Assembly: GCF_001614315.2 (NCBI RefSeq) | Contig: NZ_LVEG02000020.1 | Span: 1-64,000, forward strand | Length of the DNA: 64,000 bases | Direction: 5' to 3' | DNA from: Halofilum ochraceum | GTDB taxonomy: Bacteria > Pseudomonadota > Gammaproteobacteria > XJ16 > Halofilaceae | In this document: positions 12,259 to 64,000 of the stretch, piece after piece | How the letters are laid out: each line of letters starts with the position of its first letter | Position numbering within the stretch: position 1 is the stretch's first letter | The notes under the pieces: generated by a model | Database searches by the model: none | What the model was told of the DNA's origin: nothing | What the model saw: only the letters and a program-made list of their open reading frames with translations | Made by a program: the position numbers and the translations under genes

Positions 12259-12312
12259 ACTCGGTTCCGAATAAAGTAGTTGCTTATGTATCCGACACCA
12301 ACCCCGGCCCAT

Positions 12313-13258: not shown

Positions 13259-13809
13259 TTTCTAAACTCCAGTCTATTGACATTAACCCTCCTGCCCCGT
13301 CAGTTGCAGCGCATCAAACGAATCGGGAAATACTAGTACCCGGACCTGCACTAGAGATGGTGCCTCACCGTTTTTCGCCACCCCAGAAGACGCGACAGGG
13401 CGTGTAGTTGAGAGGTACCGCGGTTACGCTCGCAGTTCAACCGGACATGGTGATCCGCGCGCTCATGCGCGGGGCAACGCCGCCGGACACGCACCGGCGG
13501 AAAGATCAGCGCGTACCAGCTCGAGCTCGGCGCGTCACTAGCCAATCGAACCTGGCACGCGCACCCGGTCACCCCCCGGATCCAGCACGACCTCGACGTC
13601 TTCGGAGAGTTGTAAAAACGTACCTGCCGCCAGCACGGCTATCTATTCAATCGGAAGTACGAGCACACAGACGCTGGACGAGACATTGCGCCGAAAGACG
13701 CCATTCCCAACCATCAAGAAGACACACAGAATCGCCGCCATGACCTACCATAATCGGGTTCCCCGGCGACCCCGTTTGTCGGGTACGTACGGAATCAGCA
13801 CAGTGATCG
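13259..13809. other. 550-base gap, no convincing gene
   Basis: The stretch separates the ABC-type membrane protein from the methyltransferase. Small open frames exist on both strands (for example 13408-13743 plus) but are arginine- and proline-rich and resemble no family I know. It is where the ATPase half of the adjacent transporter might have been expected, yet I see no Walker motifs. It may be decayed DNA. Confidence 0.45.
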
Positions 13810-14877: not shown

Positions 14878-14888
14878 TTCGCCCTCTC

Positions 14889-15779: not shown

Positions 15780-15996
15780 GTCCCTTTATGCCCTCTCACT
15801 TACATGTCCCGGAACAGCATCAATCGTCTCCATTTCGATCCGACCAGAGCCACGGATCTGTCCCGGACCCGCTGCGGATCCAATGAATCGACGCAGCGAC
15901 GGTCGTCTGCGCGGCTGCTCCAACTTCTATCACACTCGGACGGGAGTGCTGCGCCCCCCGTATAGTTTTAGCGTTGGCCCGCATACTGGCGCCGGG

Positions 15997-17949: not shown

Positions 17950-18391
17950 GTCATCAGATCTCTATATGTCTCGTCACAGTCGTGGCCACTCAATCCAGCT
18001 GGCCCAACCGAACTACATCGGGATAGACGCGTGTCGCCGGATCAGTGATCCGGCGACGGGCTATTGGTGCGCGCTACGTACGCTCATAGCAGGACCATAT
18101 TGGATTCGGCAGCGCTAATGGACACTGGACTGAAGCCCGCCGTCAAAACGACGGACCCATATAATCCTTATACGACCGTTCAGTCCAATCGACAGGCCAT
18201 GCGAATCCTCGTTGGCTCAGCGTTCTAATTCACAGTGTTGGTCGCAGGGATGTCCGTCGGTTCCTGCGCTAACGTTCGCTAGACAAAGGCCTAGTCGCCG
18301 GTCGCGCGAGCAAGGGAGATTCAAGGGGCGAAAATTACGCAATTTTCCGACCTTCCGTTTGCTTTACACGCCCTGTAAGGCGCGCAGCATA
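17950..18391. other. Structured 440-base gap between the two fusion genes
   Basis: I see no gene. A perfect palindrome with 12-base arms around one central base lies at 18033-18057, about 85 bases upstream of the fusion 1 start. Upstream in the transcript, GGACTGAA (18127-18134) pairs with TTCAGTCC (18179-18186) and encloses a smaller CCGTC/GACGG hairpin. Terminator, operator, RNA leader or remains of a mobile element are all possible. Confidence 0.5.
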
Positions 18392-20437
18392 TTAACCATA
18401 GGATTTATACCTGAGTTCGAGGCCGCCTAAATCCACCTTGGACGCTGACTCAGACTTCGAAATATGTAATGCGACGTCGAAACGGTGACTTGACGGATGT
18501 GGCGCAAAAGCAAATTTGATGCTTTCTCGATTCTTATCCAGTACCCCAATCCGTCGTTTGTAGATCTGTTTTCCATCCTTCGCGTAGCTCAATGCCCAGA
18601 TTGTCACGCATGAATTGCGCGGCGCCTCCTTCCGGAGTTCGCCTTGTATATACATCATATATGGCGTCGGCCATCCGGAAGCGGTGTTCTTGGTCGTAGC
18701 CATCTCGTTCCAGCGACTCCCCCCGATCGTCACGTACGCATGACGACCCTCTCCATACGGTACGACAACCATCTTACCCGCCGCAAAGGATACGTCGCAG
18801 TTCCCACAATAGAGTCGATCCGAATTTATCCGGATATTCTCAGGGTATTGACCTGTCTTCGGCCTATTCCCGAGGGCTCGTTTGATTTTGTTTAAGAATC
18901 GCCCCCAAAACACATCGACCGCACGTCTCCACCCTTGCCCGATGCGTGGCCTGACTTCGCCATAGCCCAGGCGCACATTGACTCCACCGCCAATTTTCGC
19001 AAATTGGCGTTTCTGTTCGATCGTCCAGTCCGGGTAGCTGGGGAAGTCATTCGATTTTGACGCATTCACGGTGCGGCCGATCAGGTCCGCGCCGAGGCGC
19101 TGATGGTACGGAATGCCGAGTTTCTGCAGCTCCGTTTCGAGAGCGTCCGGTCCTGAAGCCATTTTTTCGAGCGAGATATGGGAGTTACACGTGACAATCA
19201 AACGCTCATTCACTTCGGCGACATACTCGCACACCCTTTCGAGACGCGTCATCGCGGCGACGTTCTCGTGTCGCAGTCGGGGATGTGCATGATCCTCCGG
19301 TGTGTCATACCAGTCGCGCTGCATAAGTGATCGGACTACGTTCGCAGGATTTCGGCGCAGGTGAACATACGTTGCTGCAGGAAAGAATCGCTTCAGGTCG
19401 TTTATGAATGAGGGAAGGTAGACATTGACTTCGGCGTAGTCTTTCGAGATCTGGCTGATTTCTTCCCAGGCATCACCCAAGAGGGTTTCGACACGTTCGG
19501 GCTCTTCCTCAAGCATTCGCGCGGCGGCGGTCGCCTTCTGGGCAGCGTCCCCGTTATGGTATTCCTGATTCAGGATGTACTCGTGGCGCGCTTCCAGCGG
19601 AGTTGCTTGCTGCAGTACCTCGCTCAGCCATTTGGATCCAGAGCGGGCTGGTGAAAGGAAAAAATAGAGTCTGGGGGGACCGCGCCAGTGGATCGGGTGG
19701 ATTAGTACCTGCCAACGCTCCTGTCCGCGTGCATACGAAAGTGGATCGGGACTCCGTGTCCAGTCCCCTCCGCTATCGCTGAAATACCGGTCAAACTCCA
19801 GGTGCCAAGCATGGTAGTCGATACCGAACTTGGCCATCGGAATCGACCATAATGGATATCGACAACCGTCTGGCCGCAGCGCTTCGTGACTCGCCGGGTA
19901 GTGCAGGCGCCGGCGATTATGGTCGGACTCATAAGGACCTTCGGCGGTTCGACCATCTTCATTCGCGAACGTATCGTATGGTTTAAGTTCGCTGAAACAC
20001 CAGTAATTGCTGACGCTGTGTTCATAACAACGGCGATCCCCGTGAGCCGCGATCCCCGTAACGGGAACCCCAGATTCACGAAGCTTCTGGAGCTGCTCGG
20101 CGATGGTTTGCGCGGGATCTTCGATCTCTCCGCCCGCCCATTGGGCCATCGCGTTTACATGCAGCCCAATCTCGTGACCGTAGTCCTGCAGTTGCAGGCA
20201 CTTTTCGGCCAATCGCTCATCCGTCCAGTACGGGGCGGTCGGTAGCAGAAAGTACGTGGCCCGAGCGCCCGCCTGGTGCTCCCAGTACGCCATTTCGAGC
20301 GCCACGTCGATGTCATAGTCCACGTCATGACGGAGTCCGCAGAGCCCTCGCGCCTCGGGTTGCTCGTGGAGCTCCCGCAGGGGGACGGTCTCTCCGAAAT
20401 GCTCGAGGTATCGGCTGTATTCCTCGAGGATCGCCAT
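18392..20437 (-). CDS. Fused polysaccharide-deacetylase-like / sulfotransferase protein with C-terminal extension (fusion 2)
   Basis: 681 residues, three parts. Residues 1-250 are deacetylase-like: RHDVD at 36-40, IGLHVN at 90-95, AAHGD at 130-134 and LIHPIHW at 245-251. Residues about 255-500 are sulfotransferase-like: P-loop SPARSGSKW at 262-270 and 3'-phosphate motif HLRRNPANVVRSL at 359-371. Residues about 530-681 look beta-rich and could be a carbohydrate-binding module; I do not recognise the family. It shares the domain order of fusion 1 but little direct sequence, so the two are diverged paralogues or separate fusions. The start codon follows the upstream glycosyltransferase stop directly, so translation is probably coupled. 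Confidence 0.8.
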   Translation of the reverse strand: MAILEEYSRYLEHFGETVPLRELHEQPEARGLCGLRHDVDYDIDVALEMAYWEHQAGARATYFLLPTAPYWTDERLAEKCLQLQDYGHEIGLHVNAMAQWAGGEIEDPAQTIAEQLQKLRESGVPVTGIAAHGDRRCYEHSVSNYWCFSELKPYDTFANEDGRTAEGPYESDHNRRRLHYPASHEALRPDGCRYPLWSIPMAKFGIDYHAWHLEFDRYFSDSGGDWTRSPDPLSYARGQERWQVLIHPIHWRGPPRLYFFLSPARSGSKWLSEVLQQATPLEARHEYILNQEYHNGDAAQKATAAARMLEEEPERVETLLGDAWEEISQISKDYAEVNVYLPSFINDLKRFFPAATYVHLRRNPANVVRSLMQRDWYDTPEDHAHPRLRHENVAAMTRLERVCEYVAEVNERLIVTCNSHISLEKMASGPDALETELQKLGIPYHQRLGADLIGRTVNASKSNDFPSYPDWTIEQKRQFAKIGGGVNVRLGYGEVRPRIGQGWRRAVDVFWGRFLNKIKRALGNRPKTGQYPENIRINSDRLYCGNCDVSFAAGKMVVVPYGEGRHAYVTIGGSRWNEMATTKNTASGWPTPYMMYIQGELRKEAPRNSCVTIWALSYAKDGKQIYKRRIGVLDKNRESIKFAFAPHPSSHRFDVALHISKSESASKVDLGGLELRYKSYG

Positions 20438-39835: not shown

Positions 39836-40714
39836 TCAGCATCCATAATGCCTGTACAGCCGGTCAAGCAGACGGTATGCCAAGCGGTCCGGCGCCCCAG
39901 CGACCAAGCCAGCGCCCGCATTGACCATTACCGTACGTTGCATCCGCAGCCGATTACCGGCACATAAATGACCCACCCGAATCTCTCCATGAATCCGCGC
40001 ATCCGCGCATAACTTTCTGATCGTGTCAGTCGGATTATCCACCAGATGCTCATATCTTATCCTTCTGGATTCGCAACGGCTCAGCCGGATACACACTTGG
40101 CACGCCCAATTGATGATCAGCCAATACACTGCGGTTCTGACCCTTGACCGAGGCGGAATATCCCTTTGGACTCCTTTCTCATGCGCCTTATCATGACCTC
40201 GACTCAGGGATTCGATAACCGCCCACGGATGCCGAACAAGATGCACGACCATCACCCCGCCCCTAAGTGCCCGAGCCGTATGGATGAGATTCACGGGGCT
40301 CTTCGATGAGTCAACGATAACCTGCCCTGCCAGGTCACTCGTAAGAACCTCGAGTAAACGCCGCTTATTATCGAGATACCACCGGTAGCTCCAACTTCGC
40401 ATCGGGCCCAGAATCGCATACCATGCCCGGGCGCCGACTGGATGCGTGTATTCTAGTTCCATCCTGGCGAATCGTTTGATACCCTCTTGATCCAGATTGC
40501 TATCCGCCGCCCATCGCTCAACGACCCGATGCCAGACCGGGCACTCATTCAGCCGCCTCCCACACGAGCACAATTCGCCGGCCAAATATGCCGGTATAAG
40601 TCGCCTAAGCTCTCCGCACGAACAATATCCTTCCTGATGCCCGATCAGTATATCCAACAACGTCGAGCCGCTACGTCCGGCACCGGCCACATATATCAGA
40701 TCCGGCTTAATCAT
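39836..40714 (-). CDS. Sulfotransferase
   Basis: 292-residue sulfotransferase-family protein with 5'-phosphosulfate loop GAGRSGST at 11-18 and 3'-phosphate motif VVHLVRHPWAVIESLSRG (about 155-172). The N-terminal block after the loop is cysteine-rich (CSCGELRR, then LCSCGRRLNECPVW). The pattern CSC-CSC-C suggests a bound metal or disulfides, unusual for a cytoplasmic sulfotransferase, but seen in related bacterial proteins. It overlaps the upstream sulfotransferase gene by 8 bases. Confidence 0.88.
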   Translation of the reverse strand: MIKPDLIYVAGAGRSGSTLLDILIGHQEGYCSCGELRRLIPAYLAGELCSCGRRLNECPVWHRVVERWAADSNLDQEGIKRFARMELEYTHPVGARAWYAILGPMRSWSYRWYLDNKRRLLEVLTSDLAGQVIVDSSKSPVNLIHTARALRGGVMVVHLVRHPWAVIESLSRGHDKAHEKGVQRDIPPRSRVRTAVYWLIINWACQVCIRLSRCESRRIRYEHLVDNPTDTIRKLCADARIHGEIRVGHLCAGNRLRMQRTVMVNAGAGLVAGAPDRLAYRLLDRLYRHYGC

Positions 40715-41573
40715 GATCTCCCGTATCGGCCATGCCGTTGATTTCTGATCGAAGTCGCTCGGGAATGGTTCTTCGTGGAACCGTTTTGATGTTAAAGCGT
40801 TTCACAGCGGAGACAATCCCGAGCGACCCGACGCCCAACGCCGACTTCGCCCGCCTCGCGAGACCGCTGCCGATTTTTTGTCTGTTTGCGGCATGAAGAA
40901 GTCTGCCGAGTACCCGGCTCCGGTGCGCTTTCCGTACGTTTACCGGCGGGAAATCCTCTCTCCCATTATCTTCTATATCCAAAAACTCAAGCGTCTTACG
41001 GTAAACCGACCCCGCGTCCGCGACCAAGGCTTCATAATTCAGGATGAGAACATTTTCATCACCGAACCGTTCAACATAGCGAACCGCGTACTCACGCATT
41101 CGAATTAGTTCGCGATACCGTGTTCTCCACCCTGGGATCTCCTCGATTGTGTTTGCGGGGATTCCAGCCTTACGTTTCCGTTCACGCTCCCAAGCCCTTT
41201 CCAGTTCCGGATCGGCCTCGTACCCGCCGAAGACCAACTGGGCATGCAGGGAGGCCACGAACTCCGCCGGCTCCCGAACCAGGATGATAATTTTCGCGAA
41301 CGGGTTGTACCGGAATATCTCCTCACGAGCATGGTCCGAAAAAAGGTACCATACCGAGGCCTCACCACTGACGATGCAGTTATGTCCTTTTTCGAGAATC
41401 GCGCGATAGTGCGCCAGAGTTGTAATTTTCCGGTGACGGTCCTTTTCGCATAGGAAGAAATGCGGTTCCTTCGGACTGGTTACATATATATCCGGGTGCT
41501 CCCCGAGATACTGCGCCAGCGCCGTGGTCCCGCACTTGGGGGCCCCAACAATGAGAAAGTTCAGATCATCCAT
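40707..41573 (-). CDS. Sulfotransferase
   Basis: 288-residue sulfotransferase with the classical loop VGAPKCGTT at 9-17, preceding YLGEHPDIYVTSPKEPHFF as in heparan sulfate and NodH-like enzymes. The 3'-phosphate motif is IIILVREPAEFVASLHAQL (about 95-113). Length is normal. Likely O- or N-sulfates a glycan sugar using PAPS. It lies between two other sulfotransferase genes in operon I. Confidence 0.92.
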   Translation of the reverse strand: MDDLNFLIVGAPKCGTTALAQYLGEHPDIYVTSPKEPHFFLCEKDRHRKITTLAHYRAILEKGHNCIVSGEASVWYLFSDHAREEIFRYNPFAKIIILVREPAEFVASLHAQLVFGGYEADPELERAWERERKRKAGIPANTIEEIPGWRTRYRELIRMREYAVRYVERFGDENVLILNYEALVADAGSVYRKTLEFLDIEDNGREDFPPVNVRKAHRSRVLGRLLHAANRQKIGSGLARRAKSALGVGSLGIVSAVKRFNIKTVPRRTIPERLRSEINGMADTGDHD

Positions 41574-41811
41574 TTATCACTTCGCAGCCTGTTCGCGTGC
41601 GGTATGAGTGTTCTATCCTTCACTACGCCGCTCCCTACACACCACCGAGACCAGCGCCGCTCGTGCCCTGATGACCCCGCAGGCGGACCGGCCGCAGGAT
41701 ATCCATCAATACCTAGAGCAGGTGGACCGACAGGCCATCACCCGGCGACGGGGCGGCGCCGTCCAACCCACCGCACTCGTAAACGCGGCCGTTTACGCAT
41801 GCATTAGGACA

Positions 41812-42588
41812 TTACTCCATTGGCCGTCTTGCATATGGTGTCCCAAATATCTCTTCGACCGCGACGATAAACGCGTAGTCTCGGGCGTACCATCGTTTGA
41901 GATTTTCCCTGGCGATCGCGGAAAGCTCAGTTTCGTCCCCATACTGATTCTGATGTCGGTGGATACTGGACCCCGGAAGCTGAAGTCCCGACCCCAGATC
42001 AAGCCCCTTCTGCAGGTAGCCGACATCCTCCGAGAGCTTTTCCTGGCGCAATACACCGACAACTTTGCTTCTATTTTCTTCCAGCAGGAGTTCGCCGCGG
42101 AACCAATCCCAATACGATGATTTCACGTGTCCGATCGCGTTCATTGCATTGGCAGCCCACGCCCGATCAGATGCACTCCCACAGAGTGCCTCCGCCAGTT
42201 CAACCGCGTTCCCGTACCGCGAAAATGCGGCCGCTTCGGCTCTTGTGTGCGCGCTGCGAAGACGTGGTAGCCCCTCCCTTCTACGGCTGTAAAACCCGCT
42301 CACGAACCGCGCTATAGGATCCCGGATCGTAAACAGACAAAACTCTTCGACCGGCACGTCCGAAATAGTGAATGTGTGTCGATGCGGAACAAAGTAGTAC
42401 TCTCGGTTTTTCCGAGAGTTGTAGTCAATCAATGCGTTCTGCAGTGCCGTTCCGGCCGTTTTCCCCATATGCACGAAATGGACTATACATCTCCCCTGAA
42501 AACGTTCGACCGAGAGTCGACATCGACTCTCGGCGAGCATAGCGTATCTACCCAGCTTCCTACATGCAGCTCCCAATATCATTCGCAT
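41812..42588 (-). CDS. Sulfotransferase family 2 (carbohydrate sulfotransferase type)
   Basis: 258 residues. The phosphosulfate loop has the Sulfotransfer_2 form HMGKTAGT at 40-47, and the 3'-phosphate motif is FTIRDPIARFVSGFY at 86-100. This group includes eukaryotic chondroitin/dermatan and HNK-1 sulfotransferases. The N-terminal 34 residues are extra; a later start is possible. It follows the flippase gene by 9 bases and precedes the other sulfotransferases by a 240-base gap in which I see no gene. Confidence 0.88.
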   Translation of the reverse strand: MRMILGAACRKLGRYAMLAESRCRLSVERFQGRCIVHFVHMGKTAGTALQNALIDYNSRKNREYYFVPHRHTFTISDVPVEEFCLFTIRDPIARFVSGFYSRRREGLPRLRSAHTRAEAAAFSRYGNAVELAEALCGSASDRAWAANAMNAIGHVKSSYWDWFRGELLLEENRSKVVGVLRQEKLSEDVGYLQKGLDLGSGLQLPGSSIHRHQNQYGDETELSAIARENLKRWYARDYAFIVAVEEIFGTPYARRPME

Positions 42589-42597
42589 TCGACCATA

Positions 42598-43950
42598 TTA
42601 TTCGCGCGCTGCGCCCATAATTGATATTCCGAGGATTCTGTACGCCATCCATGCCTGAAGGCAATTACGCAGTACCAACGCGCACGATGTCGCGACTGCA
42701 GCACCTAAAATACCAAATATCGGAATAAGGACGCCGTTCAGGATAATATTTACTGCGGCCCCGGCAAGCAAAAGCTTGCTGTTCGTTGCCTCGTTTCCGG
42801 TCATACTCAACAGTATCCCCATCGGCCCCGTCGCCACATTAATCAGTTGCGCAACTCCGAGTACCGCGAGCGCGGTATGCCCTCGTGCGAAATCGACACC
42901 AAATACGGTCGCGAGTATCGAGTCCCCGGCGATAAAGAATGCCCCGATCACCGGGATCGCTACAATAAAGATAACGCGGGTGGCACGGCGTACCAATGTT
43001 TCGAGGGTGCGCATTTCTCCGGACGCGTACATGCCTGCGAACCGAGGAGAAAGGATCGGATTTGCCACCTGCAATCCGAGACCGACAAGCGTTGCGCCGT
43101 GAACCACTGCACGGTACACGCCCACGTCCTCGGGTGTCCGGAGCATTCCAAGCATTATCAGGTCGATCTGCGCGTTGATAACGCTTGCGCCGCTGATAAC
43201 AATAAACGGTGGAAGGCTTTTCAGCCATTTAAGATCCTCGTGTTTCGGCGGCGCGGAACCCATTTCGATCGACCAGCTATGCGAGAGAATAACCACACCG
43301 ATAGTGAGCACGGCAAGCACGCCCAAAAGCTCAGCGAGCATTGCGACGTGGGGTTCGCGGAGTGCAGGCCAGATCGCAAATACGGTAACGACAATGACCA
43401 ACACCAGGGCCTTTTTCACGACTGAATTGATCGCAATGCCGATCAACACCCGATTCAACCCACGCAGGGCAAAAACGACAACCTTCGCCGCTGCTGCGAT
43501 GGGCAGCATCGCGAGCATTAGGCTCAAGGTCAAAAGCGCGGGTTGCTGCAATCTGTCGGAGAAAATTGTAAGCAGACCAAGCCCCGCCAATGCGACGATT
43601 GAAGCGGCGGCTACCGCTAACTGCGACCCGCGTCGTACTGCACCCTGAACGGTTGGCCAATCGCGCCTTACTCGGGCTGCCGCGACTTCTCGCATAAGAA
43701 GGGTGGGAACCCCTGCTTCGGCGAGCACACTCGCAAGCGTCATTATTGCGACTGCGTGCGCGTAGACGCCGAAACCCTCGGCGCCAAGCAACCGGGCGAG
43801 AAGGATACTAAGCAGGAGTGCGATCAGGCGATCGCCGGCGAGAATCCCAGCGCTGCCCGCCGCGCCGCGCAGCAGTTGCGCTTTCAGGCCAGATCCCTTC
43901 GCGTGAGCCAAGAGCCAGTCTGAGAGACTCTTATTGGATCGGTCGGCCAT
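42598..43950 (-). CDS. Wzx-type oligosaccharide flippase
   Basis: 450-residue polytopic membrane protein of the polysaccharide-synthesis (MOP) exporter superfamily with about 12-14 hydrophobic segments. The N-terminus GSAGILAGDRLIALLLSILLARLLGAEGFGVY is the family signature. It flips undecaprenyl-linked repeat units to the periplasm. No Wzy polymerase was recognised nearby. First gene of operon I in transcription order; a 250-base gap with no recognised repeat separates it from ugd. Confidence 0.92.
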   Translation of the reverse strand: MADRSNKSLSDWLLAHAKGSGLKAQLLRGAAGSAGILAGDRLIALLLSILLARLLGAEGFGVYAHAVAIMTLASVLAEAGVPTLLMREVAAARVRRDWPTVQGAVRRGSQLAVAAASIVALAGLGLLTIFSDRLQQPALLTLSLMLAMLPIAAAAKVVVFALRGLNRVLIGIAINSVVKKALVLVIVVTVFAIWPALREPHVAMLAELLGVLAVLTIGVVILSHSWSIEMGSAPPKHEDLKWLKSLPPFIVISGASVINAQIDLIMLGMLRTPEDVGVYRAVVHGATLVGLGLQVANPILSPRFAGMYASGEMRTLETLVRRATRVIFIVAIPVIGAFFIAGDSILATVFGVDFARGHTALAVLGVAQLINVATGPMGILLSMTGNEATNSKLLLAGAAVNIILNGVLIPIFGILGAAVATSCALVLRNCLQAWMAYRILGISIMGAARE

Positions 43951-44202
43951 ATGATTGACTACCGATTATTTGAAGGCGATCGGGTGCCTTTATAGACCAC
44001 CCGCTGTCGCCGGGGCCGGTGGAATGCGTTTGCCACCCCTCCCCCCTTGCCGCCTCCGTACGGGGCAATTCACGGAATGGCAGGGAGCCTGATCCGCTGA
44101 CGGTCCTCGCTCTATCTCCTGTTGGAGCCGATCGGCTTATGCGCGGCGATTCACTGTCCAACCTGCCGCGGCGAGCACTTACGCCGGATAACAATGCCTC
44201 GT

Positions 44203-45625: not shown

Positions 45626-45662
45626 GGGCTAAGGGCCAAGGGCCAAGGGCCAAGGGCCAAGG
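45626..45662 (+). repeat. Heptamer array (GGGCCAA), left of the four-helix-bundle gene
   Basis: About five tandem copies of a 7-base unit (GGGCTAA then GGGCCAA). It lies in the gap between ugd and the four-helix-bundle gene. Its orientation is opposite to the array at 46080-46136, so the small gene is flanked by inverted arrays. Confidence 0.9.
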
Positions 45663-46079: not shown

Positions 46080-46136
46080 CCTCAGCCCTCAGCCCTCAGC
46101 CCTCAGCCCTTGGCCCTTGGCCCTTGGCCCTTGGCC
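46080..46136 (-). repeat. Heptamer array abutting the sat-cysC stop codon
   Basis: Read on the minus strand, the TAG stop of sat-cysC runs straight into GGGCCAA copies (about four), followed by GGGCTGA copies (about four). A uniform 7-base period with a unit switch inside one array suggests growth by slippage from more than one seed. Confidence 0.9.
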
Positions 46137-47864
46137 CTACTTAATGTACCCCATCTTCTCGAGCTTCAGCACGATATCGTGCGCCGCCTGGTCGGGGCTG
46201 ACGTCCTGGGTGTCGAGGCGGATTTCGGGATTCTGCGGTTCCTCGTAGGGGTCCGAGATGCCGGTGAAGTTCTTGATCTCGCCGCGGCGGGCGCGGGCGT
46301 AGAGGCCCTTGCGGTCGCGTTCTTCACAGACCTCGAGCGGTGTGGCGACGTGGACTTCGACGAAGCCGCCCTCGGCCTCGATCATCTCGCGTACGATTCG
46401 GCGCGTGGCCGTGTACGGGGCGATCGGGGCACACAGCGCGATACCGCCGTTCTTGGTGATCTCGCTGGCGACGAAGCCGATGCGCTGGATGTTGAGCTCG
46501 CGGTGTTCCTTCGAGAAGCCGAGTTCGCTCGACAGGTGTTTGCGCACGACGTCGCCGTCGAGCAGCGTGACCGGACGGCCCCCGAGTTCCATGAGCTTGC
46601 TGAGCAGCGCATGGGCGATGGTCGACTTGCCGGAGCCGGAGAGGCCGGTGAACAGGACCGTGAAGCCCTGGCGGTTCTTCGGCGGGCGCGAGCGCCGCAG
46701 TTCCTGGACGACCTCGGGATAGGAGAACCAGTCCGGGATGTCGATCCCCTCTTCCAGGCGGCGGCGCACCTCGGTACCGGAGAGCTTCAGGACGGTCTCG
46801 CTCGCGTCGATCTCGCTGGCCGGAGCGTACTGGCCACGCTCCTCGACGAACGCCATTTCCTTGAACGGGACCATGCCGATGCCCAGCTCGTCGCGGTAGC
46901 GCTCCATGAGGTCCTGGGCGTCGTAGGGGCCGTAGAAGTCCTCGCCGGCGGAGTTCTTGCCGGGGCCCGCGTGGTCGCGGCCGACGATGAAGTGGGTGCA
47001 GCCGTAGTTCTTGCGGATGATGGCGTGCCAGACCGCCTCGCGCGGCCCGCCCATGCGCATGGCCAGCGGCAGCAGCGAAAGTGACGTGGTCTGCTCGGGG
47101 TAGCGCTTGAGGATGAGTTCGTAGCAGCGCACCCGCGTGAAGTGGTCGATATCGCCCGGCTTGGTCATGCCGACGACCGGGTGGATCAGCAGGTTGGCCT
47201 CGGCCTCCTGGGCGGCCCGGAACGTGAGTTCCTGGTGGGCGCGGTGCATGGGGTTGCGCGTCTGGAAGGCGACGATGCGCGTCCAGCCGACCTTCTCGAA
47301 GAACTCGCGCAGCTGGGTGGGCGAGTTGCGCAGGTGTTTGAAATCGTAGTGCGTGGGCGCCTCGATACCGCGCACGCGCCCACCGAGGTAGACCGAGCCG
47401 GCGCGGTTGTGGAGGTAGTGCACGCCCGGGTGCGCGCTGTCGTCGGCGCCGAAGACGTGTTTCGCTTCGAGCGACTTGTCGGGGCGGTAGACGTCGGTGA
47501 CGTCGATCACGCCGATCAGGACGTGTTCGGCATCGCGCAGCGCGACGGTGATGGGTTTGTCGGCGCTCGCGCCCTCGACCTTGGTCGCGAATTCCTCGGA
47601 GACGTCCAGCGTGATCGGCATCGGCCAGAGGGTGCCGTCGGCGAGGCGCATGTCGTCGCGCACGGACTCGTAGTCGGCCTGCGTGAGAAAGCCCTCGAGC
47701 GGCGAGAAGCCACCGTTGAGGAGCAGTTCGAGGTCACAGAGCTGGCGGTGCGTCAGGCTCCATTCGGGGAAGTCACCGGCCTGCGCGGCCAGTTCGGCGG
47801 CGGCGTCCGATGCGAGATAGCCTACTTTGAGGCTGCCGCCGTGCGGCTCGACGAGTCGTGTCAT
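46137..47864 (-). CDS. Bifunctional sulfate adenylyltransferase / adenylylsulfate kinase (PAPS synthase)
   Basis: 575-residue fusion: ATP sulfurylase (about 1-390) then APS kinase (about 400-575). Sulfurylase motifs are QTRNPMHRAH at 201-210 and GRDHAGPG at 295-302; the kinase P-loop is GLSGSGKS at 407-414. Together they make PAPS from sulfate and ATP. This homomeric Sat type differs from the CysDN type usual for gammaproteobacterial assimilation. Standing among six sulfotransferase domains, it most likely supplies the sulfate donor for glycan sulfation. ATG 47864 chosen; longer frames enter repeats. Confidence 0.95.
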   Translation of the reverse strand: MTRLVEPHGGSLKVGYLASDAAAELAAQAGDFPEWSLTHRQLCDLELLLNGGFSPLEGFLTQADYESVRDDMRLADGTLWPMPITLDVSEEFATKVEGASADKPITVALRDAEHVLIGVIDVTDVYRPDKSLEAKHVFGADDSAHPGVHYLHNRAGSVYLGGRVRGIEAPTHYDFKHLRNSPTQLREFFEKVGWTRIVAFQTRNPMHRAHQELTFRAAQEAEANLLIHPVVGMTKPGDIDHFTRVRCYELILKRYPEQTTSLSLLPLAMRMGGPREAVWHAIIRKNYGCTHFIVGRDHAGPGKNSAGEDFYGPYDAQDLMERYRDELGIGMVPFKEMAFVEERGQYAPASEIDASETVLKLSGTEVRRRLEEGIDIPDWFSYPEVVQELRRSRPPKNRQGFTVLFTGLSGSGKSTIAHALLSKLMELGGRPVTLLDGDVVRKHLSSELGFSKEHRELNIQRIGFVASEITKNGGIALCAPIAPYTATRRIVREMIEAEGGFVEVHVATPLEVCEERDRKGLYARARRGEIKNFTGISDPYEEPQNPEIRLDTQDVSPDQAAHDIVLKLEKMGYIK

Positions 47865-48439
47865 GTTCTTCTTTCCGTACTTGCTTGCGGGGTCATCGGG
47901 CGGGGCCCGGGGAGGCGCTGCGATGCGCGTCAGGGCGCGCATTGTACGCGGTTTGGGGCGTTTGCGGGAGGTGGAGCGGCAGGCGGCAGGCGGCAGGCGG
48001 CAGGATCGTAGGCGCGTTTTCGCCGGAGGCGAACGCGCGCATTCGCTGTGCACCGGCGCTGGTGCGCCCGATACGTCGTGCGGGCACGATCGCGAGCAAG
48101 CTCGCTCCTACAGTGGCGCCGTGCCGGAACGCGGCAATACGGGATACTTTGGGCGACGGGTTGTAGGCCGGCCTTTCCCGGCGTGCCTCGCATTCGGGGT
48201 ATGCACCGGCAGCGACCGCCGGGGAATGCCGGCATTGCGCGGTGAGATGCCCGGGCCGTTATCGACCGTCCCGAACCGCGCAAGGCCGGCCTACGTCCGA
48301 GGCGAGCAGCGTAGGCCGGCTTTTGCCGGAGGCAACAGCCGGCATGCATCTGCACAAGGCCGTGGCCTCGTCCGCCGGCTGGCTCCCTTCGGTCGCAAGC
48401 CGGCCTACGTTCCGGGCAAGTGGTAACGAGGCAGGCGAA
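47865..48439. repeat. Repeat cluster between the epimerase and sat-cysC genes
   Basis: No gene seen. Contents in order: GGCAGGC heptamer array (47977-48003), GCGCGC-type REP (48008-48041), GCGAGCAAGCTCGC hairpin (48088-48113), a 132-base CCGGCC-ended long element (48163-48294), a TTGCC-type REP (48311-48343) and a TTCGGTCGCAAG-type REP (48374-48408). All REP and long elements carry GTAG or CTAC at their outer ends. Confidence 0.88.
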
Positions 48440-51676: not shown

Positions 51677-52046
51677 GGGTCTTCTCCTTCGCGGCGCAGG
51701 TCCATTCGCGCCGTTATTGAATTCGTATGCCGGGTCCCGCGAGCGGGTGGATGGTTCCCGCGGCGGAACGGCGGATTATGCCACAGGCGGGCGGCAGGCG
51801 GCAGGCGGCAGGCGGCAGGCGGCAGGCGGCAGGCGGCAGGCGGCAGGCGGCAGGCGGCAGGCGGCAGGCGGCAGGGCCAAGGGCCAAGGGCCAAGGGCCA
51901 AGGGCCAAGGGCCAAGGATCGTAGGCCGGCTTTTGCCGTAGGCAACAGCCGGCAGCCGCCGCACAAGACCGTGGCCTCGTCCGCCGGCTGGCTCCTGCCA
52001 CGTCGCCTGCGGCTCCTCGCAGCGATGCCTTCGGTCGCAAGCCGGC
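51677..52046. repeat. Heptamer arrays and REPs between the MFS gene and ssb
   Basis: No gene seen. A GGCAGGC array of about 13 copies (51784-51874) passes directly into a GGGCCAA array of about six copies (51874-51917). A TTGCC-type REP (51921-51953) follows, then a TTCGGTCGCAAG-type REP (51983-52050) that carries 33 extra bases inside. The MFS stop codon TAG lies in the GTAG of that REP. Confidence 0.9.
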
Positions 52047-53405: not shown

Positions 53406-54001
53406 CGATCGGCCTCGCAAGCAGGTTGGATGGGCCGTGCGGGCCCGGTCATGATCGCCGCACGCGGCCGCAAGCGGACCGGCGTCGCGCACGGGGTGAA
53501 AAAGTGCATGTGCTTTTGCCTGGTACCGCGGGGACGGCGTATATTAGCAGGTTGGCCGCGCGCATCGACAGGTGGCGACAGAGCAAGGGCCAAGGGCCAA
53601 GGGCCAAGGGCCAAGGGCCAAGCTGGCAGAGTGTAGGCCGGTCTTTCCCGGCGCCCAAGGCATTTCGGGTATGCATCGCCGTACTCCGCCGGGGTACGTT
53701 TCGCGGGCGGTGTGCATTCGAGCGTTGCGGTGGGGCGTTGTCGGGGATCGCGGCAGTGCTATCTGCATGGGCCTGCCGGGCCGATGCGTGGTGCGGGCAC
53801 GATCGCGAGCAAGCTCGCTCCTACAGGGGCGCGTTGCCGGAGCGTAGGCCGGCTTTTGCCGAAGGCAACAGCCGGCGTGCACCTGTAAAGCGCCCCGGAC
53901 TCGCTCGCCGGCTGGCTCCCTTCGGTCGCAAGCCGGCCTACGTCTGCAACGAGGCGGCTTGATTACTTTTTTCTTTGCAGTAGACACTCCCGGAATTCTC
54001 C
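53406..54001. repeat. Repeat-rich divergent region between the MFS gene and uvrA
   Basis: Promoters for both genes must be here, but I cannot place them. Contents: heptamer GGGCCAA array (53585-53622), a half-copy of the long CCGGCC element (from 53633), a GCGAGC hairpin (53802-53826), a TTGCC-type REP (53844-53876) and a TTCGGTCGCAAG-type REP (53907-53941), which ends about 60 bases before the uvrA start. Confidence 0.85.
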
Positions 54002-56860
<2,859 letters not shown>

Positions 56861-57436
56861 GGGCCAAGGGCCAAGGGCCAAGGGCCAAGGGCGAAGGGCG
56901 AAGGGCGAAGGGCGAAGGATGATCGGTTTGCTTCGGGAGCGGCGGTAGGCGCGTTTTCGCCGGAGGCGAACGCGCGCGGCCGGCGGTACGGCAGACTCGA
57001 TCGCTTCGGGCGCACCGCGCGCATTCGACCGGTACGGTGGCCCGGTCGAAGACGCGCCTACGTCGGGAGGTCCATTCAATGACGAACGCCCACGTAGGCC
57101 GGCCTTCCCCGGCGCGTCCCCACATTCGATTCGAGACGTGCACCGTCACTCGCCGCCGGGGAATGCCGGCATTGCGCGGTGAAATGCCAGGGCCGGTATC
57201 CGGCTGTGCAGACCGCACAAGGCCGGCCTACACAGTAGCGGCGGCCGCATTCGATGCGCGTGTCCGCCGGGGCGACGGACCGCTTGTCGCGTTGGGTTTC
57301 CTTCGTCAACCCAACCTACGTTGACGGCTTTTCGATTCCGTCAGACGCGGGACGCGCTCCTCGGCCCTTGGCCCTTGGCCCTTGGCCCTTGGCCCTTGGC
57401 CCTTGGCCCTTGGCCCTTCGCCCTTCGCCCTTCGCC
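56861..57436. repeat. Repeat-filled gap between uvrA and the SCO gene
   Basis: No gene seen. It begins with a heptamer array on the plus strand (56862-56917; about four GGGCCAA then four GGGCGAA) and ends with one on the minus strand (57363-57437). Between them lie GCGCGC-type REPs (56945-56977; degenerate 57017-57061), a 138-base CCGGCC-ended long element (57094-57231) and a GTTGGGTT repeat (57289-57320). Both convergent genes thus end in arrays reading in their own sense. Confidence 0.9.
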
Positions 57437-58045
57437 CTACCACCCGTCCGATTCGGCGAGGCGTTCCAGATCCGCGGCCAGGTCGTCGATGTCGTCGTCT
57501 TCGCGGCCGAGCAGGCGGATTTCTCCGTCGCGGTCGAAGATGAAGGCCGCGTTGGAGTGCGAGACATCGTAGAACCCGCTGTCGTCGGGCTTGCCGTAGC
57601 CGAAGGTGGTGCGGTAGCGCTTGGTGAGATCCCGAAGGTACGGGATGGGTCCGCGCAGGCCGACGAAGCGTTCCCCGAAGCTGTCGACGTACTTGGCGAG
57701 CCGCTCGGGCGTATCGCGTTCGGGATCGACCGAGACGAACAGCACGCGCACCTCGTCGGCGTATTCCTCGTCCATCTGCTGCAGGGCCTGCGAGAAGCGG
57801 GCCAGTGTCAGCGGACACATGTCCGGGCAGCTGGTGAAGCCGAAATACATGACCTTGATCTTGTCGTCGTATGCGGCTTCGGTCACGGTCTCCCGGTCTT
57901 CCGCCCGCGTCAGCTCGAACTCCAGATCCGGCATCAGGCCGCTGACATCGCGCAGGTTCCAGGGCTCTTCCTCGGCGCAGCCATTGAGCAGGAGCAGGCC
58001 CAGGGCCAGCAGGGCACCGGCCATGATGCGCGCGGGATATCTCAT
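57437..58045 (-). CDS. SCO1/SenC-family copper chaperone lipoprotein
   Basis: 202-residue thioredoxin-fold protein that delivers copper to the CuA site of cytochrome c oxidase. Lipoprotein signal with LLLLNGC (Cys23). Copper ligands Cys73 and Cys77 in TSCPDMCP and His163 in VSHSN. It overlaps the ctaG-like gene upstream by four bases (ATGA), fixing the start. The TAG stop runs directly into a GGGCGAA heptamer array. Confidence 0.95.
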   Translation of the reverse strand: MRYPARIMAGALLALGLLLLNGCAEEEPWNLRDVSGLMPDLEFELTRAEDRETVTEAAYDDKIKVMYFGFTSCPDMCPLTLARFSQALQQMDEEYADEVRVLFVSVDPERDTPERLAKYVDSFGERFVGLRGPIPYLRDLTKRYRTTFGYGKPDDSGFYDVSHSNAAFIFDRDGEIRLLGREDDDIDDLAADLERLAESDGW

Positions 58046-58996: not shown

Positions 58997-59040
58997 ACGC
59001 GATGCGGTCCCCAGGCGCCACAATCCGGAGCCGCAACGAG

Positions 59041-59067
59041 AAAAGGCGGCCCGTGAGGCCGCCTTTT
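59041..59067 (-). terminator. Intrinsic terminator of the alpha operon
   Basis: Perfect 11-base arms AAAAGGCGGCC and GGCCGCCTTTT around a 5-base loop, with A- and T-runs at the ends, 27 bases downstream of the rplQ stop. It can work in both directions. Confidence 0.88.
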
Positions 59068-59094
59068 CGGGGACAACCGATTGACCCGATTCCG

Positions 59095-59463
59095 TTACGG
59101 GGCGTCGGGCCGGTCGACGAGCTCGACGAGCGCCATCGGCGCGCTGTCGCCTTCGCGGTACCCGCACTTGAGGATACGGACGTAGCCGCCGGGGCGTTCG
59201 CTATAACGCGGACCGAGTTCCTCGAAGAGCTTGCGCACGCCGGCCTTGTCGCGCAGACGATTGAACGCGAGCCGACGGTTGGCAACGCTGTCTTCCTTCG
59301 CAAGCGTGATCAGGGGTTCCGCATGCCGACGGAGTTCTTTCGCCTTCGGCAGCGTCGTCTTGATCAGCTCGTGCTCGAACAGCGATGCCGACATATTCCG
59401 GAACATCGCCGAGCGATGGCTGCTGTTCCGGTTGAGCTGCTTACCGCTTTTGCGATGACGCAT
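59095..59463 (-). CDS. rplQ: 50S ribosomal protein L17
   Basis: 122 residues, starting [23 protein letters not shown] as in all bacterial L17 proteins. Last gene of the alpha operon, 28 bases after rpoA and just before a strong terminator. Confidence 0.98.
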
Positions 59464-59491
59464 GACTGCAGTTCCAATATCCGGTTGGCGG

Positions 59492-60496
59492 TCAGGCCGA
59501 GGAAGCCTTGTCCTGACGCTGGAGTTCGGCCGGTGGCCAGCCCTCGAGACGCATGCCGAGCGACAGCCCCTGGGATGCGAGGACGTCCTTGATCTCGGTG
59601 AGCGACTTCTTGCCCAGATTCGGCGTCTTCAGCAGCTCCACCTCGGTCCGCTGGATCAGGTCCCCGATGTAGTAGATGTTCTCGGCCTTGAGGCAGTTCG
59701 CGGAACGAACCGTCAACTCCAGATCATCGACCGGGCGCATCAGGATCGGATCGATCTGCGATGCGCTCTCATCGGCCTTCGCCTGCTCGTCGCCCTTGAG
59801 TTCGACGAACACCGACAGCTGCTCCTGCAGGATCGAGGCCGCGCGGCGAATCGCCTCTTCCGGGTCGATGGTGCCGTTGGTCTCGATATCAAACACGAGC
59901 TTGTCGAGGTCGGTCCGCTGCTCGACACGCGCACTCTCGACGCTGTACGACACCCGGCGCACCGGGCTGAAGGTCGCGTCGATCTGGAGGCCGCCGAGGG
60001 CGCGGCTCTCGCCCTCTTCCTGCTCGCGGGCGGTCGACGGCTCGTAGCCGCGCCCCTTGCGTGCATGCAGCGTCGCCTCAATCTCACCGCGATCCGTCAG
60101 GTGCGCGATCACGTGATCGGGATTCGCGACCTCCACGTCGTGATCGGCCTGGATGTCACCCGCCGTCACGACGCCGCCGCCTTTCTTCTTCAGCGACAGG
60201 CTGGCTTCGTCCCGGGCGTGCATCCGGATCGCCACGCCTTTGAGATTCAGGAGGATATCCATCACGTCCTCGTGTACACCCTCGATGCTGGTGTACTCGT
60301 GGACAACTCCCTCGATCTGCACGTCCGTGATGGCGGCGCCGGGCATCGACGACAGCAGGATGCGCCGGAGCGCATTGCCGAGCGTGTGACCGAAACCGCG
60401 CTCGAGCGGCTCCAGCGAGACGCGGGCGCGATAATCGCTTAGCGCCGAAATATCGACGATCCGCGGCTTCAGGAATTCATTGACGTTACCGGACAT
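59492..60496 (-). CDS. rpoA: RNA polymerase subunit alpha
   Basis: 334 residues. N-terminal assembly domain ([26 protein letters not shown]) and C-terminal domain (residues about 250-320, with [15 protein letters not shown]) that contacts UP elements and activators. Length slightly above E. coli (329). It follows rpsD by 17 bases. Confidence 0.99.
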
Positions 60497-60513
60497 CGGT
60501 TTGACGCCCTCCG

Positions 60514-61134
60514 TTACTTCGAGTAGAGCTCGACGACCAGCGACTCGTTGATCTCGGCGGGGAGATCGCTACGAACCGGGACGGACTTGAACACGCCTTC
60601 CATTTTGGTCGAGTCGACCTCGATCCACTCCGGAATCCCGCGCTGCTGCGCCAGATCCACGGACTCCGAAAGACGGTTCTGCTTTTTGGCGCGCTCACGG
60701 ACCGCGACAACGTCGTGTGCCTGCACCTGGTAGGAGGGGCAGTTGACGACGACACCGTTGACCGTGATCGCCTTGTGGCTCACCAGCTGCCGCGATTCGG
60801 CGCGGGTGCTGCCGAAGCCCATCCGCCACGCGACGTTGTCGAGGCGCTGCTCCAGGAACTGCAGCAGGTTCTCGCCGGTCGACCCTTTACGCTGGGACGC
60901 CTTCTTGTAGTACTTGCTGAACTGCTTTTCCATCACCCCGTACATGCGCCGGAGCTTCTGCTTCTCGCGCAGCTGCAGGGCGTAGTCGGAAGCCCGACCG
61001 CGACGACCCGTCGCCGGGCCCGGCGGGCGATCCAGTTTGCATTTCGACTCAAGGCTGCGGACGCCGGACTTGAGGAAGAGATCGGTTCCCTCCCGACGGC
61101 TCAGCTTGCACTTGGGACCGGTATATTTGGCCAC
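60514..61134 (-). CDS. rpsD: 30S ribosomal protein S4
   Basis: 206 residues with the S4 RNA-binding domain ([30 protein letters not shown]). Starts [21 protein letters not shown]. In many gammaproteobacteria S4 represses the alpha operon translationally; I did not identify the leader pseudoknot here. Confidence 0.98.
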
Positions 61135-61149
61135 GTTCGCCCTCCCGGC

Positions 61150-61545
61150 TTAGACGCGCCGACGTTTCGGCGGACGACACCCGTTATGGGGAATCGGCGT
61201 CACGTCGGTGATGCTGTTGATGTTGAAACCCGCGTTGTTCAGCGAACGCACGGCCGAATCGCGACCCGGGCCGGGGCCCTTCACGCGGACTTCCAGGTTC
61301 TGCAGGCCGTAGTCCTTCGCGGCCGTGCCGGCGCGCTCGGCGGCGACCTGCGCCGCGAACGGCGTGCTCTTGCGGGAGCCGCGGAAACCGGAGCCCCCGG
61401 ACGTCGCCCAGCTCAGGGCATTGCCCTGGCGGTCGGTGATCGTGATGATCGTGTTATTGAACGATGCATGCACGTGCGCAATGCCGTCGGAGACGGTGCG
61501 ACGCACCTTCTTCCGTGGCGTTGTCTGGGTCTTGGTCTTCGCCAT
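61150..61545 (-). CDS. rpsK: 30S ribosomal protein S11
   Basis: 131 residues with conserved blocks [17 protein letters not shown] and the C-terminal [18 protein letters not shown]. Lies between rpsM and rpsD in standard order. Confidence 0.98.
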
Positions 61546-61580
61546 TGCCTCGGTGTCCCGCTCGTTGACTGGTTACGCGA

Positions 61581-61937
61581 TCAGCGCTTGATAGGCCGGC
61601 GCGGGCCCTTGCGAGTGCGCGCGTTCGTCTGCGTCTGCTGCCCCCGAAGCGGCAGGCCGCGCCGGTGGCGGAGGCCGCGGTAGCAGCCAAGGTCCATCAG
61701 ACGCTTGATGTTCATGGAGACTTCGCGCCGGAGATCGCCCTCGACACTGTACTGGCCGATCTCGTTGCGCAGCGCGTCAACCTCCCCCTCGGAGAGATCC
61801 CGCACGCGCGTATCCGCCGGCACGCCCGCGGCGTCGCAGATCTGGCGCGAGCGCGTCGGGCCGATCCCGTAGATCGACGTCAGGGCCACCCAGGTGTGCT
61901 TGTTCACCGGGATGTTGATGCCTGCGATGCGAGCCAT
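61581..61937 (-). CDS. rpsM: 30S ribosomal protein S13
   Basis: 118 residues. Start ATG 61937 ([19 protein letters not shown]) chosen within a longer frame. The basic C-terminal tail [10 protein letters not shown] reaches the decoding centre. Located 86 bases after rpmJ. Confidence 0.98.
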
Positions 61938-62023
61938 TCGCACTGTCTCCTCAAACCGTTGGGAAGCCGCGCAGTATAGCGGCGCAGCCTGGTCCTGTGC
62001 AAGAGCCGGATTCGGCCCCCGTG

Positions 62024-62137
62024 TTACCCCTGCCGCTGCTTGTGCCGGGCGTCCCGGCAGATCACGCGCACCGAGCCGTTGCGCTTGATGATCTTGCAAT
62101 GACGGCAGACTTTCTTGACCGATGCACTTACCTTCAT
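62024..62137 (-). CDS. rpmJ: 50S ribosomal protein L36, zinc-binding form
   Basis: 37 residues, too short to be picked out as its own frame; it is the C-terminal part of a longer open frame. The sequence [20 protein letters not shown] keeps the zinc ligands Cys11, Cys14, Cys27 and His32 (C+ type). It lies between secY and rpsM as usual. Confidence 0.96.
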
Positions 62138-62203
62138 TTCTCTTCTCCACCCGGGGCTGGCCCCGTACGCGCCACGCTGGTTTTGACCCGTGTTGTTTCT
62201 TCG

Positions 62204-62220
62204 AGGGCCAAGGGCCAAGG
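62204..62220 (+). repeat. Short inverted heptamer array upstream of rpmJ
   Basis: Just over two copies of GGGCCAA on the plus strand, 66 bases upstream of the rpmJ start. It is inverted with respect to the long array beside secY, so the two could pair in the spc transcript. Confidence 0.8.
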
Positions 62221-62310
62221 AAAAAATCCTCCGCGCCTCGGCGTGCCGTAGCGCCTCTACCGCTTATTGCCGCTCGCCTTCGCCCAAAAACCTAACACCT
62301 GCCGCCGTCC

Positions 62311-62412
62311 CTTGGCCCTTGGCCCTTGGCCCTTGGCCCTTGGCCCTTGGCCCTTGGCCCTTGGCCCTTGGCCCTTGGCCCTTGGCCCTTGGCCCTTGGC
62401 CCTTGGGCCCTT
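62311..62412 (-). repeat. Heptamer array (about 13 copies) inside the ribosomal operon, after secY
   Basis: Directly beyond the secY TAG stop (and an adjacent TAA), the minus strand runs into GGGCCAA repeated about 13 times, the longest GGGCCAA array in the window. It lies between two essential genes of one operon and must be transcribed. Confidence 0.92.
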
Positions 62413-62413
62413 A

Positions 62414-63772
62414 CTAACCGCCGCCCCGGCGGTTGTAGCCCTTCAGGTTCGCCTTCTTCATCAGGCTGTCGTACTGGTGACTCATCAGATGCGACTGGAC
62501 CTGCGACATGAAGTCCATGACGACGATCACGATGATCAGCAGCGAGGTCCCCCCGAAATAGAAGGGCACGTTCAGCCAGATGATCAGGAACTCCGGCAGC
62601 AGGCAGACCGCCGTGATATAGAGCGCCCCGACCAGGGTCAGGCGCGTCATCACGCCATCGATATACCGTGCGGTCTGTTCACCGGGACGGATCCCGGGGA
62701 TGAATGCGCCCGACTTCTTCAGGTTGTCGGCCGTGTCGCGCGAATCGAACACCAGCGACGTGTAGAAGAAGCAGAAAAAGATGATCGCGGCCGCATAGGC
62801 CATGACGTACAGCGGCTGACCCGGCTGCATCGTCGCCACGAGATCCCGCAGCCAGCCCATGCCCTCGCCGGTCTGGCCCGCCATGTTCGCGATCGTGGTC
62901 GGGAACAGGATGATCGACGAGGCGAAAATGGCCGGGATCACTCCCGCCATGTTCAGTTTGAGCGGCAGATGGCTCTGCTGCGCGGCGTACATCTTCTTGC
63001 CCTGCTGCCGCCGGGCGTAATTCACGGTGATCCGGCGCTGACCGCGCTCGATGAACACCACGAAGCCGGTCACCCCGATCGCCAGACCCGCGATCAGCAG
63101 CACCACCGGACTGGCGAGCTCACCCGTGCGCACGAGTTCCAGTGTGCCCCCGAGCGCCGCCGGCAGACCCGATACGATGCCGGCAAAGATCAGGATCGAG
63201 ATCCCGTTGCCGACGCCGCGTTCCGTGACCTGCTCACCGAGCCACATCAGGAACATCGTCCCGGTGCTCAGGGTGACGACGGTCGTGAACACGAACGCGA
63301 GTCCGGGCGTAAATACCAGCGCCTCGCCACCGACCTGTTGGCCCTGCAGCGCGATGCCGATGCCGATCGACTGGAAGATACACAGCGCCAGCGTGAGGTA
63401 GCGCGTGTATTTCGTGATCTTGCGCCGGCCGGCCTCCCCTTCCTTGCGGATGGCCTCGAGGCTCGGGACCACGTGCGACATCAGCTGCATGATGATCGAC
63501 GCGGTGATATAGGGCATCACGCCCAGGGCGAACAGCGACATGCGCTTGAGCGCACCGCCGGAGAACATGTTGAACATGTCCAGGATGCTGCCCTGCTGCT
63601 GCTCGAACAGCCGCCCCATCACCACCGGGTCGATCCCCGGGATGGTGATGTGCGCGCCCACGCGGAAAATCACGAGCGCGAGCAGGACGAACATCAGCCG
63701 CGAGCGCAGCTCGGCCGACTTCCCCAGAGCGCCTACGCCTCCGGAACCCGATGCGGCAGCCGTGCGCGCCAT
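62414..63772 (-). CDS. secY: Preprotein translocase subunit SecY
   Basis: 452-residue channel protein of the Sec translocon with ten transmembrane segments. Conserved blocks include [23 protein letters not shown] at the start, plug region [24 protein letters not shown], and the C-terminal [14 protein letters not shown]. Start ATG 63772 (MARTAAAS) chosen. Follows rplO by 7 bases. Confidence 0.98.
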
Positions 63773-63779
63773 ACCGCGA

Positions 63780-64000
63780 TTACTCGACCGTACCACCCGC
63801 GGCTTCGATCGCCGCGCGTGCACCCTTGGTCACCTTGACGCCCTTGACCGTCACTGCCCGATCGATCGTGCCCGAGGCGAACACGCGTGCACGCTTGGCC
63901 GTCGCCGGGATGACACCCGCGGACTTGAGGCTGCGCAGATCGACGGTCTCGCCCTCGACCTTGGCCAGTTCGTGCAGGCGCACCTTCGACGTCTCGCGCG
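63780..64000 (-). CDS. rplO: 50S ribosomal protein L15, partial (C-terminal part)
   Basis: The frame is open to the right window edge, so only about the last 73 residues are visible. [26 protein letters not shown] and the end [23 protein letters not shown] match the L15 C-terminus. Upstream neighbour of secY in the spc operon. Confidence 0.96.

Follow-up and report, generated by a model that had tools for sequence, protein, structure and literature searches.

Does the long heptamer array between secY and rpmJ in Halofilum ochraceum regulate the essential genes on either side of it, or is it one case of a more general genomic repeat? A sequence-only reading of the window (the whole 64,000-nucleotide stretch of DNA that was analyzed) had raised the former possibility: it described about 13 heptamer copies and, about 90 bases further on, two inverted copies before rpmJ, which together could act as an RNA processing or attenuation site. 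The locus is laid out as follows:

62414 to 63772, minus strand: secY (stop codon 62414-62416; start taken from the codon model, a longer start being possible; SecY relatives found)
62407 to 62413, minus strand: join between the secY stop codon and the array, TAAGGGC on the coding strand (GCCCTTA on the plus strand)
62309 to 62406, minus strand: main array of 14 exact copies, reading CCAAGGG along the coding strand and CCCTTGG along the plus strand
62221 to 62308, no strand: 88-bp stretch between the array and its partner, one copy across three congeners, REP similarity not significant
62204 to 62220, plus strand: inverted partner, 17 nt, a perfect complement of the array in 12 registers; a second edge array
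62024 to 62137, minus strand: rpmJ (bL36), 37 aa, from its translation and tblastn against related loci
61973 to 62006 (approximate), minus strand: promoter-like TTGCAC-N18-TATACT upstream of rpsM, a consensus match only

On the coding strand, the secY TAG is followed by TAAGGGC, 14 copies of CCAAGGG (62406-62309), 88 bp, CCTTGGCCCTTGGCCCT (62220-62204), 66 bp, and the rpmJ start at 62137. The array starts 7 bp past the secY stop codon, the rpmJ start lies 171 bp beyond the array, and the entire spacer is 276 bp in this genome (G000). TRF placed the array at 62309-62412, with 14.7 copies and 98% matches. The array and its unit (GGGCCAA, or CCAAGGG) had been recognized correctly, the number of exact copies being 14 and not about 13. 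The two inverted copies before rpmJ correspond to the 17-nt perfect partner, which reads AGGGCCAAGGGCCAAGG on the plus strand and amounts to approximately 2.4 units, and the spacing of about 90 bases was measured as 88 bp. Chance is excluded as the origin of this repeat, because adjacent CCCTTGG pairs, of which the window contains 34, were absent from all 100 shuffles. Among the G000 stretches sampled, the secY array is the second longest exact run (L054 has 19 copies); its exact copy number, more than its existence, is in doubt. A similarity search with the 88-bp middle returned a single match and no second copy in three congeners, which rules it out as a dispersed element.

The RNA of the spacer is predicted to fold so that the last array units pair with the partner while the other units pair among themselves (MFE -135.5 kcal/mol, z -4.93; none of 200 shuffles reached so low a value). 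Pairing of the two, as had been suggested, is possible by this prediction, and in the secY-rpmJ transcript the array may fold onto its partner; such a fold is expected almost by construction, because the repeat has a perfect inverted copy. A scan of 61930-62700 for terminator-like sites (G+C-rich hairpins with a T run behind them) found none, and across 59000-64000 Rfam yielded no match at its gathering thresholds. A consensus scan detected one promoter-like site, before rpsM, where 0.3 were expected, and none upstream of rpmJ. The congener G002 has TTGCGT-N18-TATACT at the equivalent place before rpsM, and a loose promoter motif is found in 50 of 74 rpmJ-rpsM spacers, a raw count without a chance estimate. 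In E. coli, the alpha operon has a separate promoter, and the site before rpsM fits a promoter of this kind; the gene most exposed to any influence of the array would then be rpmJ alone. Because the array lies outside both ORFs, its slippage cannot cause a frameshift. Most likely, the secY array has no effect, or a mild one on rpmJ.

The secY array is one of dozens of G-rich gene-end repeats in G000 and one relative. Overlapping matches to (CCCTTGG)3 numbered 143 in G000, spread over many contigs, 41 in the congener G001, and 0 in the congener G002; there were no matches in 34 genomes of other genera. In a wider draw, arrays of the looser type GGG[AC][AC][AT][AC] were found in 14 of 369 genomes of the class, with the GGGCCAA unit in G000 and G001 only, among the matches listed. 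Neighboring blocks consist of related units at unchanged period (GGGCGAA, GGGCCGA, GGGCTGA, and GGCAGGC). Besides the secY array, TRF results, once merged, show eight further period-7 arrays in the window:

3141 to 3172, plus strand: GGGCGAA array with a stop codon on one side and a GTAG hairpin on the other
45631 to 45662, plus strand: array that breaks the orientation rule described below (3' gene nearer), without GTAG
46080 to 46138, minus strand: mixed-unit array touching predicted genes at both ends
47976 to 48004, plus strand: GGCAGGC-type array running into the ATC-GTAG of a second REP type
51790 to 51917, plus strand: two-unit array, a GGCAGGC block and then a GGGCCAA block at unchanged period, running into the ATC-GTAG of a REP-like hairpin
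53584 to 53622, plus strand: family array with GTAG 10 nt past its 3' end; the G001 counterpart is of approximately equal length
56859 to 56918, plus strand: family array sharing one intergenic region with the array at 57363-57438, the two facing each other
57363 to 57438, minus strand: family array overlapping the stop codon of its own 5' gene

The position of the arrays relative to genes was measured in the window, 27 further G000 stretches, and 25 G001 stretches, which yielded 59 merged array blocks. The stretches were picked for CCCTTGG, so that arrays purely of other units are under-sampled outside the window; those from G000 were taken from the matches listed, and on later contigs most arrays below five copies fall outside the sample. 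Blocks from G000 and G001 include orthologs of each other and do not count as independent. Gene calls came from a codon model that had the window as its training set, and the same model was applied to the family f181 discussed below. The model misses rpmJ and gives rpsM as the 3' neighbor of the secY array; the orientation count is unchanged by this, since the true neighbor, rpmJ, lies at 171 bp.

The arrays are intergenic almost throughout, with only 1 of 65 segments (L184) fully inside a predicted gene, and they follow a rule of orientation. In the direction of the G-rich strand, the 5' gene is the nearer one in 53 of the 56 blocks that have both neighbors (p 8e-13; 3 of the 59 blocks are left out for want of them), and the array points into intergenic space; the rule is broken by three blocks and holds for 38 of 40 in G000 alone. 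Of 30 arrays with a stop codon at the 5' edge, 28 lie within 24 bp of it (6.2 expected with uniform placement), and 11 share bases with it. Where the 5' edge is a start codon, the array keeps a distance of at least 33 bp in 25 of 26 cases. Among 60 intergenic regions holding 14 nt or more of known heptamer, 11 have both orientations, and all 11 pairs face inward, secY-rpmJ included (two of the 11 regions are orthologous to each other). Thus, the inverted partner is a second edge array and needs no separate explanation.

Comparison with congeners shows how changeable these sites are. Ten aligned orthologous site pairs have arrays in both G000 and G001, mostly differing in length or unit mix; seven of the ten were found through the G001 array, which biases the sample, and three are window arrays on a syntenic G001 contig (window 52359-61940) whose G001 array matches were already known. 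The secY site is not comparable in G001, because contig C56 begins near the start of rpsM and a SecY match is absent, although this genome is rated 100% complete. Another G001 contig begins within an array (G001:C4:14-77, L176). In G002, the secY-rpmJ spacer is 86 bp long and without an array, versus 276 bp in G000, while its SecY protein has the same end length, with one residue different near the end. Across genomes, a period-7 array in this spacer was found at 1 of 78 scanned loci, namely that of G000, and at 0 of the 77 others (82 loci entered the scan; 2 were unscored, and 2 with non-positive spacers were left out). Spacers longer than 200 bp presumably contain infA, as judged from gene order.

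Many arrays of the genus abut a REP-like hairpin carrying a GTAG tag. GTAG lies within 15 nt past the G-rich 3' end in 25 of 59 blocks (19 of 41 in G000 alone) versus 90 of 1,682 array-free intergenic windows (5.4%), and its counterpart on the 5' side, CTAC at no greater distance, was seen in 0 of 59 blocks (1 of 56 with a slightly wider window and a different segment set). In 34 of the 59 blocks, the secY array among them, GTAG is absent within 15 nt. The GTAG-REP pattern, with at most one mismatch, matches 47 times in G000, 27 times in G001, and not at all in G002. No GTAG REP was detected at the secY locus, where the best local score of 26 was equalled by 289 of 2,000 shuffles and 8 of 60 coding windows; by the same counts, a 19-nt local match of the 88-bp middle to the second REP type, though plausible to the eye, is not significant, and we rejected it as a decayed REP. 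Alongside the GTAGGCCGGC type, both that second REP-like type, GTAGGCGCGTTTTCGCCG..., and a variant, GTAGGCGCGTCTTCG..., recur in the window (near 48008 and 56945 on the plus strand) and in further G000 stretches sampled.

A hairpin of any kind past the array is weak as a general rule: the fold z score is below -2 in 12 of 57 blocks, while the gene side reaches this in 4 of 57 and array-free intergenic windows in 10 of 147, and the region past the secY array has a z of +0.87 and no hairpin. The Y1_Tnp gene at G000:C18:120238-120507 has inverted REP pairs on its flanks, and Y1_Tnp genes are found in G002 too. REP transposase-like Y1_Tnp between inverted GTAG hairpins was observed at L151 (G000:C18:119939-120748) and at L154 (G001:C11:53339-54016), apparently one common site in both congeners, as the neighboring frames are similar. 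The idea that the arrays are part of a REP transposase locus was discarded, L151 having inverted REP pairs and no exact triple heptamer.

Beyond the genus, GGGAATC arrays were found in 12 of 59 genomes of family f181, which by this unit is probably Xanthomonadaceae. Forty stretches from six f181 genomes gave 37 usable segments, 15 of the 52 being left out as lying inside a predicted gene or lacking a neighbor. In 32 of the 37, the 5' gene is the closer one, and stop-codon distances are at most 21 bp in 15 of 19 cases. The class search provided 13 loci (12 outside f181, plus L219 within it), at six of which an open frame of 145-491 codons ends at most 21 nt from the array: L206, L207, L209, L214, L219, and L235, of which the 145-codon frame at L209 may have arisen by chance. 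At L206, which belongs to another family, the full order is present: stop codon, (GGGACAA)n, AATT, GTAG, and palindrome. GTAG stands beside the array in 4 of 52 cases in f181, which is no enrichment, and beside 3 of the 16 arrays of the 13 loci, so GTAG abutment fails as a general rule outside the genus. The orientation rule recurs in f181; the REP link does not. The hairpin test in f181 gave 11 of 50 past the array versus 4 of 50 on the gene side, the 3' side being lower in 26 of 50. CGTCATT within 30 nt was considered as a companion motif in f181, but at 4 of 52 versus 1 of 52 on the other side, the numbers are too small to use. By eye, L280 and L284 (both in f181 genome G385) have an inverted repeat and T run resembling an intrinsic terminator past the GGGAATC array.

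We estimate a probability of about 0.72 that the secY array is a genus-restricted, slippage-grown, G-rich gene-edge heptamer simple sequence repeat (SSR) belonging to a genome-wide family. The constant period, the varying unit, the fixed gene-edge geometry, and the presence in part of one genus are direct observations. Given similar arrays at many loci, often beside hairpin repeats, the secY array is probably an expanding genomic repeat and no special operon switch. Such arrays would lengthen and shorten by strand slippage and would spread up to coding sequence and not into it, presumably because selection stops them there; the hairpins past some arrays might, quite tentatively, promote growth by stalling the polymerase. 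Slippage alone falls short of explaining either the dispersal of one unit to dozens of sites or the fixed orientation. Self-folding of the single strand is predicted to be favorable for GGGCCAA and GGCAGGC and not for GGGCGAA or GGGAATC; not being common to all units, it is ruled out as their common cause.

Regulation at this locus by an RNA stem of array and partner, one that attenuates, terminates, or marks cleavage between secY and rpmJ or the alpha operon, draws on the predicted stem and on a site between essential genes. The family recurs at many unrelated loci, however, where inward-facing pairs are the rule; the site shows neither a terminator nor an Rfam family, G002 does without the array, and the promoter-like site upstream of rpsM is common to G002. 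A processing or attenuation site specific to this locus therefore finds no footing, regulation of this kind by the secY array is unsupported, and we regard it as very unlikely. Selection might instead act on all the arrays, as quadruplexes, protein-binding tracks, or 3'-end stabilizers maintained at gene ends. The same geometry with different units in separate lineages, the proximity to stop codons, the REP-like hairpins nearby in this genus, and the in vitro quadruplexes and transcription of most repeats described in PMC4692102 speak for such an element. Against these stand the change of unit between congeners at the same site, units without GGG such as GGCAGGC, a congener (G002) that lives without arrays, and the statement in that paper that neither a gene-class bias nor a regulatory role was found, and we hold a general function of this sort to be doubtful. 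An artefact of assembly, in the array or in its length, is scarcely credible: long perfect repeats are prone to misassembly and no SecY match was found in G001, where C56 starts near the start of rpsM, but in G001, which was assembled separately, the orthologous sites carry arrays that differ in length and unit, and the flanks of the secY array are a normal spc operon.

A further possibility makes the arrays by-products of the REP/RAYT system: a nick or stall at GTAG would leave a G-rich 3' end, to which seven bases at a time would then be added. It would account for GTAG past the array in 25 of 59 blocks (versus 90 of 1,682) with CTAC on the opposite side in none of 59, for the REP pattern and arrays being both present in G000 and G001 and both absent from G002, and for the stop codon-(GGGACAA)n-AATT-GTAG hairpin order at L206 in another family. 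Yet 34 of the 59 blocks, secY included, have no GTAG nearby, GTAG accompanies only 4 of 52 arrays in f181 and 3 of 16 in other lineages, the REP-flanked Y1_Tnp locus L151 lacks an exact triple heptamer, and Y1_Tnp genes are present in G002 too; growth driven by REPs is improbable on this balance. The broader form, in which a reaction on the DNA itself, at hairpin tags, produces the arrays, with a nick or stall before the tag and seven-base extension whatever the unit sequence, is likewise a long shot. If it were true, the order of gene edge, array, and tag would mark active writing of tandem repeats in bacteria, carried out by a REP transposase or a polymerase. The tie of 25 of 59 blocks to a REP-like hairpin tag makes such a tag-side expansion model testable.

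Returning to the reading of the secY array as a gene-edge repeat, we compared it with known systems. Phase-variable contingency SSRs are tandem repeats that change length by slippage. The secY array, as a tandem repeat, would be able to change length in this way, but it lies outside reading frames, behind a stop codon, in a housekeeping operon. It occupies neither a reading-frame nor a promoter position: it is placed between the secY stop codon and a point 171 bp upstream of rpmJ, and the promoter-like site is found only downstream of rpmJ.

Much closer are the heptamers GGGAATC and GGGGA(C/T)T described from Xanthomonas and Nostoc by Rehm et al. 2015 (PMC4692102), which prefer positions near stop codons and also form convergent pairs. 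As in that class, the secY array has at least two tandem GGG-rich units (14), in a dispersed and mainly intergenic family; on the coding strand, it is G-rich and less than 50 bp from a stop codon (7 bp at secY), with the 5' ORF nearer and with convergent pairs. In contrast to that class, the units here are GGGCCAA, GGGCGAA, GGCAGGC, and others, adjoining at constant period, and 25 of 59 blocks abut the GTAG of REP-like hairpins, whereas that paper reports generally no association of the repeats with mobile elements. It leaves the functional role of the repeats to be elucidated. As the secY unit is GGGCCAA and neither GGGAATC nor GGGGA(C/T)T, we consider it a new variant and not the published family itself. 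In predicted folds of the GGGCCAA unit, GGCC self-pairing would compete with a quadruplex.

The TAACTGA heptamers of Beggiatoaceae, cyanobacteria, and Bacteroidetes, as presented in PMC4679880, are likewise lineage-restricted, dispersed intergenic arrays; that paper cites Mrazek et al. 2007 for heptamer over-representation and a polymerase idea. TAACTGA repeats are A+T-rich, lie mostly just upstream of start codons, and rarely include repeated related units, whereas the arrays here are G-rich, mostly behind stop codons, and made of several related units. GTAG REPs and their RAYT transposases are described in PMC3733652, according to which REPs are also found 20 bp or less from the 3' ends of genes, whose TAG stop codon they frequently provide; by its own statement, the association of REPs with other repeats was not studied in detail. 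The hairpins beside many arrays of the genus carry the same GTAG tag, but the secY array is not a palindromic REP, and its locus shows no REP. In the open-license literature searched, which included a survey of repeats in prokaryotes (PMC4060949), we recognized no report of heptamer arrays against REP tags or of a bacterial GGGCCAA family. This genus contributes an independent collection of units, obeying the same orientation rule at a constant period and with changing sequence, to the general question of why certain bacteria carry intergenic repeats seven bases long, oriented away from genes, and of how such repeats disperse. The secY operon also offers a caution, in that even a conspicuous repeat among essential genes may have no regulatory role.

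Apart from its arrays, the window has two regions of distinct composition. Positions 12001-20000 and 40001-44000 have a G+C content of 0.54-0.56 versus approximately 0.65 elsewhere, and their ORFs resemble those of glycosyltransferases, sulfotransferases, and a flippase, as judged from the ORFs themselves. This resemblance suggests that the low-G+C regions are a polysaccharide cluster.
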